Assembly (NCBI GenBank): GCA_036925085.1
Contig: JAUPFP010000027.1
Coordinates: 496,001-560,000 of the forward strand
From: Brachycybe producta
Taxonomy: Eukaryota > Arthropoda > Diplopoda > Playtdesmida > Andrognathidae
Length of the DNA stretch: 64,000 nt
Direction of reading: 5' to 3'
Part shown: positions 35,401-40,652 of the stretch, in pieces
Layout: each line of letters starts with the position of its first letter
Numbering within the stretch: position 1 is the stretch's first letter
Notes under the pieces: model-generated
The model's input: only the letters and a program-made list of their open reading frames with translations
What the model was told of the DNA's origin: nothing
Database searches by the model: none
Program-made: the position numbers and the translations under genes

Positions 35401-38400
35401 CTTTATTCAAAACGATTATAACGTATCCTTGGTTTCAAAACTCGTCGGTCATTCTTTTCCTAAATAAGAAAGATCTACTGGAGGAGAAAATAATGTATTC
35501 ACATCTGGTAGACTATTTTCCAGAATACGATGGTAAGTTTCACTCTTGTTTTTTTTAAACACTATTTACTTTCTCTCTCGAAACCAGAAGATCTTCGTTT
35601 TTTGAAGACGTCTTGCTGTTTCGGTAGGTTCGAGATAAGTTATCCAAGAATACAGCTTTTTATTTATTTTTCATCGTTTGAAATTTTATTTTGTGTTGTT
35701 TTTTTAATGGCGTTTTTAAAAAAAAACCGTTAGCCTTAAGTAGGGCGCGTGATTGTATTTAGCACTTTGTATATTAGCACTAATGATAGATGATAAATCG
35801 AGCGTTCGACCTTAAGACAGTATTCTTAACAATTGTTTCATAATTGCAGCTGTTAAGAAGGCTTCATGTAAATTTAGCGACAGAAACGTTTTCGTCGCTG
35901 CCAAATGGCATTAAAACTCATTTTAGTTGTTGACTTAAACGTCATCGGGGGAAAAACCGTTTATAAAATTAACTTGAAAACAGTTTAACGTCATTTTTTT
36001 TAAAATTCAAACTGCTTTTGCAAACAAATAAAACAATTTTTAGAAGCACAAGATTAAGAGCCAAGACCCTCCAGAGTTGCTACGTTAGTCGTGGTCAGTT
36101 TTGCGTTTCTAAAGTTGCTCGAATGGCTTTAACAACCAAACGGCAATTTAAGACGTTGTATACTCAAAGAACTTTATATATTGCGGAATATGCTTCGATT
36201 TTTTTTTTTTTTTGAAGCTTAAAAGATGTTCTGAAAAACAAGAAAAGTTGTTAGCAAAATGAATCTTTTTGAGGGTCAATGACCTTTAACAGCGGTCAAA
36301 TAAATTAGCATAATTCAAATATGTTTAAAATAAAAACAACTTTGAATATTGCAACCAAAAAAAACCTTATAACATGACCACAATATTCAAGAACCGATTG
36401 CAAGTTCAATTATTATTCGAAATAAAGTTTGGAGACAGTAAGGTAGTTAGAATGAGGACCATGTTTTTGGACAAATTTCACTTAACATAGTGTGTCTAGG
36501 GCGCCGTGCAACACGTGCACGCTGTTGTTAGGCTTTTAAATTAAAAATCAAGAAACTAGAAGAAAATTACTGAAGTGGGAGACTGGGAGTACTTAATACA
36601 GTATAAATCTGTGTTAAAAAACATTTTTTTATCAAGATTTCTGCTTTTAAAAGTAGCATTAGATTTTTGAGAAGAAAAAAATGTTTCCCATTTGGCCTCG
36701 TTTTAGAATATTTTCAACTTTTTTGATAGGGATTTTAATTGAAAAATACTTTTGCAAATTTGGCTGAGGTTTCTTCTAATTGGAAGCTTTTAATGTTTTC
36801 ATTTATATTAAAATCACTCACTAGGAGGTGCTGAAAGTTACATTTTTTTTAGTTATAAAATTTGTTTCTCATATTTCTGACCTATAAATCCCGTTATTTT
36901 CAGAAAAAATCAGTGATGACTGAAACTGAAATTATACTTATTTTAAGTTAGTATTTATGTTTGAATATGTTAAAGCTAAATTATATGGTATTTCTCGTTA
37001 AATTAGATGAAAAAATGAAGAAGGTTGACGATAATTTTCAAAAAATTCTCAAAGATAGTGTAAAAATAATTTTCTTTGACTTTTCTTGTTTCGTAAAACA
37101 AACTTCAAATTTTTTTTTCTCTCTTTAAGTTGCTTTTAAAAGTTTTATTTAGTTTGTTTACGTAATCATAAAATTGTTTAGGTTGAAGCCTGCGGCAAAT
37201 GGCAGTTAACGCTGTCCAGAACTTGTCTGTTCTGTTTCTATTCCATGGAACAGGACGAATTTTAACTGTTGAGCTTATATTTAATGTTGATATATATTTT
37301 TTTACATTTTCAGCCTGTGATACACAAATTACGGTATTACTAACTATAAATCTTTATTTTTTTGAGGAGCCATAGGTGGAGCTACAGTCAATTCTTTGTT
37401 GGCTGTGTGTATGTTTCTTGTAAGCATGTTACTTTTAACCTTAAAACTTTCACAGGCCCCAAACATGACCATGTCGGTGCTCGCGACTTCTTGAAGGATT
37501 TGTTCGTACTACAGAATACGGACCCCGACCGTCAAATGTACCCTCACTTCACTTGTGCTACAGGTTTGTTTGCACAATTGAAAGAAAGGAAAGAGATTTA
37601 AGTGAATATAAAAGACGGTGGTGAATGTTCCTGCAGGGGATGGATCCACTTTTCTTCCTATTTAGATTTCCGCTAATAGACAAAACACTTTGCTTGTCAA
37701 TTTTTAGCAGCCTTCTCATTCGTCAGCACTTTTTTTTAACTTTACACTTTGTTTAATATAGAAACTTATCCTTCTTACCAGTTGCTTAATACTTTTTTTT
37801 AACAAACAATCGCCTTCTTCCTCGTCTTTCAAAATTGTCTCTTATTCAATTTTTGACGTTTTTGCTGTCTTTGCGTTTTAACTATTAGACGTTAGTTTAG
37901 ACTTAGCAATAATTACAGGATAACGTATTCAAGGAAAGAAAACGTAATTATGACACAACCATTTGTTTTTACTTTTTTTAGTAGCCTCTACCCCTTCCCT
38001 CCCATATAATTTATTCATTTTGCCGTTCAGGCGAGCCCCAAGTTACGAACTTTCAAGAAATGAACAATTAGTATTTACGAACATAGCATGAAGTATTAAC
38101 TTGCGTTTCCCAATTCATTTAACGAAGGCGGAACTCCGCGCTTGTGGACATTTTGTGTTACGACACGCATTTAACAATTATCTTATGTAAAAAAAAAATT
38201 AAATTCGACTTCAAAACACATTTCAAAGAACCACGGTATGTTCGTATGTTGGGGTTCGGCTGTATTTCATTTTTAGCACTTGTTTTTGGAACACCTACAA
38301 TGAGTTGCTTTTTTTGTTTTTTTCTTGACAGTTTCAAAAAAGTGAGGTTTTAAACCAAATAACCGGATTCTTACTGCTAAAATATTCAAGAAAATCCCGC

Positions 38401-40652: not shown

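Follow-up and report, generated by a model that had tools for sequence, protein, structure and literature searches.

A single Gq-alpha gene with two intact versions each of exons 7 and 8, one set possibly related to the insect eye-type exons

Introduction

Alternative exon pairs of the Galphaq gene have been described in insects. A Lygus study gives three such pairs for Anopheles and Drosophila and infers three from transcripts in Lygus, the names being D/D', G/G' and H/H* in Anopheles and B/B', C/C' and D/D' in Lygus (PMC4553527). By the residue limits given there, these pairs correspond to exons 4, 7 and 8 of the gene described below. The same study likens a head-specific Lygus form to the Drosophila phototransduction form, and reports that the four full Lygus variants show just two matched states of the residues following Pro292, one in q1 and q3 and the other in q2 and q4 (PMC4553527). 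It also records a variant without exon 7 (residues 291-326 absent) in Lygus, Anopheles and Diaphorina; in a further variant, from Anopheles, two alternative exons contribute an insertion of 43 aa, and this variant was taken to be premature (PMC4553527). In Drosophila, according to a mutant study, the V303D substitution in exon 7A nearly abolished the light response; V303 occurs only in the eye isoform, Ile at this position rescues vision in the fly, and position 303 is placed at the interface with PLC (PMC5765363).

Comparable duplications exist in other G-alpha genes. The last two coding exons of vertebrate GNAO are likewise duplicated and chosen exclusively (exons 7.1-8.1/7.2-8.2), but this is a Go gene and its duplication is described as having been gained after the vertebrate 2R event. 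The exon 5 duplicate of amphioxus GNAQ and the exon 4 duplicates of coelacanth, gar and teleost GNAQ/GNA11 belong to the Gq family and are used exclusively, but they affect exons other than those duplicated here. Rhabdomeric photoreceptors signal via Gq, and the helix at the C-terminus, which inserts into the receptor, is the product of exon 8. Among the titles and abstract openings listed in our literature searches none dealt with Gq splice forms of non-insect arthropods, and a query made of tail letters was also empty.

Results

Structure of the Gq-alpha gene

The window is a stretch of 64,000 nt (C27:496001-560000). It carries on its plus strand the coding part of one Gq-alpha gene, with eight exon positions between 32401 and 40652. 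Six unique exons (32401-35532) come first: exon 1 (32401-32518, coding from the ATG at 32401), exon 2 (34042-34226), exon 3 (34316-34470), exon 4 (34883-35011), exon 5 (35147-35276) and exon 6 (35379-35532), the last followed by the phase-1 donor gtaagt. Intron 3 (34471-34882) is of the GC-AG type and starts with gcaagt rather than GT; the reading frame agrees with this border. The unique exons are followed by exon 7a (37456-37563), exon 7b (38566-38673), exon 8a (39099-39181, ending in EHNLI and a stop) and exon 8b (40570-40652, ending in EYNLV and a stop), all on the plus strand. Exons 7a and 7b are both 108 nt long, and 8a and 8b are both 83 nt with the stop codon. All four exons have AG acceptors, 7a and 7b have GT donors, and every junction into and between exons 7 and 8 is in phase 1. 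Each of the four combinations of an exon 7 with an exon 8 gives an open frame of 353 aa. The original prediction had proposed a duplicated 3' exon set in this order with equal phase and length, and every junction coordinate proved to be exactly as claimed; its description of 7b and 8b as canonical and of 7a and 8a as diverged but intact was also confirmed, there being no stop or frameshift in either diverged exon.

A frame scan that covered positions 24000 to 46000 on both strands identified two copies of exon 7 (BLOSUM62 scores of 188 and 101, the next best being 25) and two copies of exon 8 (scores of 133 and 95, the next best being 22), and a single copy of each of exons 1 to 6. In each of the pairs 7a/7b and 8a/8b, two homologous exons thus lie in tandem and agree in length and phase, as is expected of mutually exclusive exons. 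Because exon 8 carries the stop codon, a choice between alternative last exons is also possible. The frame would be kept either with 7a and 7b in tandem or with exon 7 skipped.

The remainder of the window contains two frames with a partial fibrinogen C-terminal domain (3095-5888), signal peptidase-like coding sequence (6821-7207; Peptidase_S26/S24, with weak scores barely over the cut-offs), ankyrin-repeat coding sequence (28515-29006) and three frames with CUB domains (53489-55234).

Family assignment and copy number

The protein translated through 7a and 8a, with six residues missing where exons 2 and 3 join, was compared with PDB. Among the best 60 of 399 matches the top ones were G11/Gq chains (best E 3.7e-186), while Gi/Go chains followed with E near 1e-105 to 1e-104. 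The GTP-binding motifs of G-alpha proteins (GxGESGKST, RVxTTGI, DVGGQ, NKKD and TCAT) are all intact, with TCAT present in both 7a and 7b.

A Pfam G-alpha search of the genome (295 Mb, 442 contigs) gave at least 24 exon-level matches on at least seven contigs. The regions fetched from contigs C27, C81, C52, C5 and C42 contain one G-alpha gene apiece, which we take from their C-termini to be Gq, G12, Gs, Go and Gi, respectively; the hits on C3 and C80 resemble small GTPases. Neither the search nor the fetched regions contained a second Gq-alpha gene. Derivation of 7a and 8a from another G-alpha gene was considered and rejected. About 10-20 kb was fetched for each of the loci that we take to be Gi, Go, Gs and G12, and each gave one tail match; these tails are 40.7-54.3% identical to the a-tail, as compared to 50% identity of 7a with 7b and 67% of 8a with 8b. 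An 11-residue tail match at L016 (E 0.52) was discounted, and a double C-terminal match on C42 seems to be a single exon that was read through into an intron.

Divergence and coding constraint of exons 7a and 8a

Exons 7a and 7b are identical at 59 of 108 nucleotides and 18 of 36 residues, and 8a and 8b at 57 of 83 nucleotides and 18 of 27 residues, so that 27 of the 63 residues differ; exon 7 accounts for 18 of these differences and exon 8 for 9. The differences are unevenly spread over the codon. At positions 1, 2 and 3 they number 14, 8 and 27 among the 36 codons of exon 7, and 8, 4 and 14 among the 28 codons of exon 8 with its stop included. For comparison, each b-exon was allowed to decay without constraint up to the observed third-position divergence in 2000 runs; this null loads all change onto one copy, which is a simplification, and exon 8 was run without the stop codon. 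With exon 7, none of the 2000 runs had as few changes at positions 1 and 2 together as were observed, and with exon 8 the share was 0.8% of 2000; second-position counts were as low as observed in 0/2000 and 0.35% of 2000 runs, respectively. The duplication is thus old, and both copies have been retained as protein code; for exon 7, third-position differences in 27 of 36 codons point by themselves to an old duplication.

These data bear on whether 7a and 8a could be relic pseudo-exons that are no longer spliced. Compared with 7b, exon 7a has weaker splice sites, with 10 rather than 14 pyrimidines among the 16 acceptor positions and a donor score of 5.51 rather than 8.52, on a scale built from approximate base frequencies. 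Against loss of splicing, the acceptor of 8a has 13 pyrimidines in 16 positions, the borders of both exons are intact, neither exon contains a stop or frameshift, and in both the first two codon positions have changed too little for unconstrained decay. The constraint indicates that 7a and 8a are not decaying, the codon-position pattern leads us to reject pseudo-exon decay, and we consider relic status very improbable.

Predicted consequences for the protein and the pairing of exons

Exon 7 specifies residues 291-326, which include position 303 in helix 4, and TCAT closes the exon in both of its versions. The expected difference in the receptor-contacting C-terminus, EYNLV from 8b and EHNLI from 8a, is present in the translations. 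The b-form would be a general-purpose Gq, and the a-exons would yield a second Gq with an altered helix-4 region and an altered C-terminal receptor-contacting helix.

Splicing would select a single version of exon 7 and of exon 8, and most likely pairs them as 7a-8a or 7b-8b. The proposal that the locus could give up to four proteins holds as a coding possibility, all four combinations being open, but it does not fit the full Lygus variants, which are paired only. Because exons 7 and 8 of Lygus occur in matched pairs, two main proteins are likelier than four. If the two exons were instead picked independently, four proteins would be made in useful amounts; the order 7a-7b-8a-8b and the four open combinations would accommodate this, but the two matched states of the Lygus variants (q1/q3 and q2/q4) argue against it and we judge it quite unlikely.

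Splicing signals and the downstream region

Two UG-rich tracts lie on both sides of exon 8a (39030-39230, plus strand) and are candidate splicing elements. Four tracts of (TG)4 or longer occur in the window, and two of them flank exon 8a within ~70 nt. When UGU was counted in 60-nt flanks (20 flanks), the region downstream of 8a ranked in the top 0.1% and that upstream of 7a in the top 0.4%; the regions upstream of 8a and of 8b were both at 2.2%, and that downstream of 7a was ordinary. Our guess is that UG-binding splicing factors may regulate the a-exons. The element TTTGTTTG is common to the regions after 7a and 8a, but an 8-mer is shared by 7.76% of random pairs and the match therefore lacks significance.

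Control of splicing by RNA pairing was also considered and set aside, as the strongest inverted repeats precede 8b and resemble an old repeat element. These two repeats (40053-40261 and 40310-40439) lie in the intron before 8b, within a segment (40040-40480) that folds with z = -9.46. Partial matches (72-82%) at three other places in the genome suggest this origin.

Neither AATAAA nor ATTAAA occurs between the stop codon of 8a and exon 8b, where only weaker variants were seen (CATAAA at 40082, AATATA at 40107 and AAGAAA at 40383 and 40388). The first AATAAA downstream of both 8a and 8b, at 42066-42071 on the plus strand, is a possible shared poly(A) signal. Given the lack of either hexamer before 8b, transcripts with 8a may share the distal site, so that 8b would form part of the 3' UTR, or may terminate at one of the weak signals.

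Likeness to the insect eye-type exons

Two versions each of exons 7 and 8 with limits equal to those of the insect pairs were found, and exon 7 has the exact limits of the residues (291-326) missing from one Lygus variant. In insects exon 4 is also an alternative pair, whereas here it is single between 24000 and 46000; we therefore group the gene with the exon 7/8 arrangement and not with the full three-exon insect pattern. The a-tail also ends in EHNLI, as compared to EFNLG in the Drosophila eye tail.

The Drosophila eye and general tails used for comparison are provisional sequences. Position 303, the sole cross-checked position, is V in the eye tail and I in the general form, which agrees with the mutant study (PMC5765363). 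Site 303 alone does not separate the two forms, because the Ile of the general form rescues fly vision. Of the 63 tail positions, 7a/8a have derived residues at 26 and the provisional fly eye tail at 24. Seven derived residues are common to both (H296, P314, R316, Q317, K332, L333 and M343). As many as seven were shared in 0/20,000 draws when derived sites were placed at random over the 63 positions, and in 0.16% under a harsher null in which change was limited to the 30 varying sites. Overall identity is less telling: 8a is identical to the provisional fly eye exon at 21 of 27 residues and to 8b at 18, while 7a matches the provisional eye exon and 7b equally (18 of 36 each), so that the eye form is not favoured for exon 7. 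The likeness to the Drosophila eye form, which the original prediction suggested for 7a, is thus upheld by the seven shared derived residues (with the fly tail itself provisional) and by the equal limits of exon 7.

Shared origin or independent duplication

A tree was built from eight sequences, with the Gs row of this genome left out, the Go, Gi and G12 rows partial and the fly tails provisional. The split joining the a-tail with the fly eye tail received 33% bootstrap in this tree. An AU test of four topologies gave p-AU values of 0.927 for a shared origin, 0.029 for independent duplications, and 0.0365 and 0.125 for the others. From these data we see a moderate, not decisive, case for common descent of the a-exons with the insect eye-type exons 7 and 8.

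The exons could also have been duplicated independently of those of insects and have reached the same residues by convergence, both serving rhodopsin coupling. Exon 4 is not duplicated here, the shared split has low bootstrap, the topology with p-AU of 0.125 lacks that split without being rejected, and 13 of the 20 positions derived in both tails carry different residues. Independent exon duplications are moreover known in other G-alpha genes (exons 7-8 of vertebrate GNAO and exon 5 of amphioxus GNAQ). The seven identical derived residues, so rare under both nulls, count against convergence, as do the p-AU of the independent-duplication tree, the equal limits of exon 7 and the age of its duplication. 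Convergence appears unlikely on balance, and we favour common descent.

An r-opsin and the nature of the genome

The genome contains an r-opsin that is 54% identical to a provisional Drosophila Rh1 sequence. Its best solved relative is Kumopsin1, from a jumping spider. Among 40 listed matches of the opsin search the first alone is clearly an r-opsin, the next being 30% identical, so that one r-opsin was found at the sensitivity of this search. The HPK motif was not found in the 1.6 kb downstream of the opsin frame.

Several features suggest the kind of animal concerned. At least 33 matches to PF00379, a cuticle protein family of arthropods, are present and, together with the r-opsin, indicate an arthropod. 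With bantam as positive control, mir-965 exceeded the Rfam cut-off; a mir-282-like hairpin with two mismatches to a provisional reference sequence (-42 kcal/mol) was absent from the Rfam result. These two microRNAs are called mandibulate-specific in one study (PMC4987109) and are listed for a centipede, crustaceans and insects in another (PMC4244043). The opsin match had at first suggested a chelicerate, a reading that we dropped in view of the two microRNAs. The genome looks like that of a mandibulate arthropod. On the mitochondrial contig C442 (15,359 bp) the cox2 frame opens directly after the cox1 stop with no tRNA between them; trnL2 in this place is the derived hexapod and crustacean state (PMC1636051). 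A myriapod would agree with both the microRNAs and this junction, and a crustacean or basal hexapod whose mitochondrial genome was rearranged may do so too.

The gene order on C442 (L023/L024) is cox1-cox2-K-D-(atp8 and atp6, by eye)-cox3-G-nad3, and the cox1 strand also carries nad4L, nad4 and, by eye, nad5. Strigamia was dismissed on the basis of its published gene table, and the order in Nymphon is different too. Other cox1-like stretches on large contigs, at L018 (G000:C1:12697416-12698753) and L019-L022 (G000:C17), are probably nuclear insertions.

Discussion

We think it probable that the only Gq-alpha gene found in this genome has two functional alternatives for each of exons 7 and 8, likely used as matched pairs, and that the a-form descends from the insect eye-type exons' common stock and serves r-opsin phototransduction. 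The less certain step of this reading is the last, in which the a-form would share its duplications with exons 7 and 8 of the insect eye type and would act in r-opsin phototransduction.

The a-exons might instead be functional and old in a Gq with a non-visual role, for example in chemosensory or gonadal signalling. At many sites the a-tail departs from the provisional fly eye tail, and titles in a reference list name fly Gq isoforms of testes and chemosensory cells. The likeness to the fly eye form, the precedent of a head-specific form in Lygus and the presence of an r-opsin in the genome weigh on the other side. We regard a non-visual role as rather unlikely, and retain phototransduction as the preferred role of the a-form.

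The locus would then hold the known insect-type pair of Gq exons 7 and 8, in a form perhaps older than the insects. We tentatively suggest, as an idea that may well prove wrong, that the duplication of exons 7 and 8 dedicated to rhodopsin predates insects, going back to the mandibulate ancestor if the animal is a myriapod; that exon 4 was duplicated later on the insect side; and that the a-exons were kept together within the gene as an eye cassette coordinated through the UG-rich elements beside them.

The chief interest of the exon 7/8 pair thus lies in its possible age. If insects share the eye-type pair with a mandibulate of another group, the use of splicing to make a Gq dedicated to vision would be an old arthropod trait. 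Were this true, lineages that lost their eyes could reveal whether the a-exons depend on vision.
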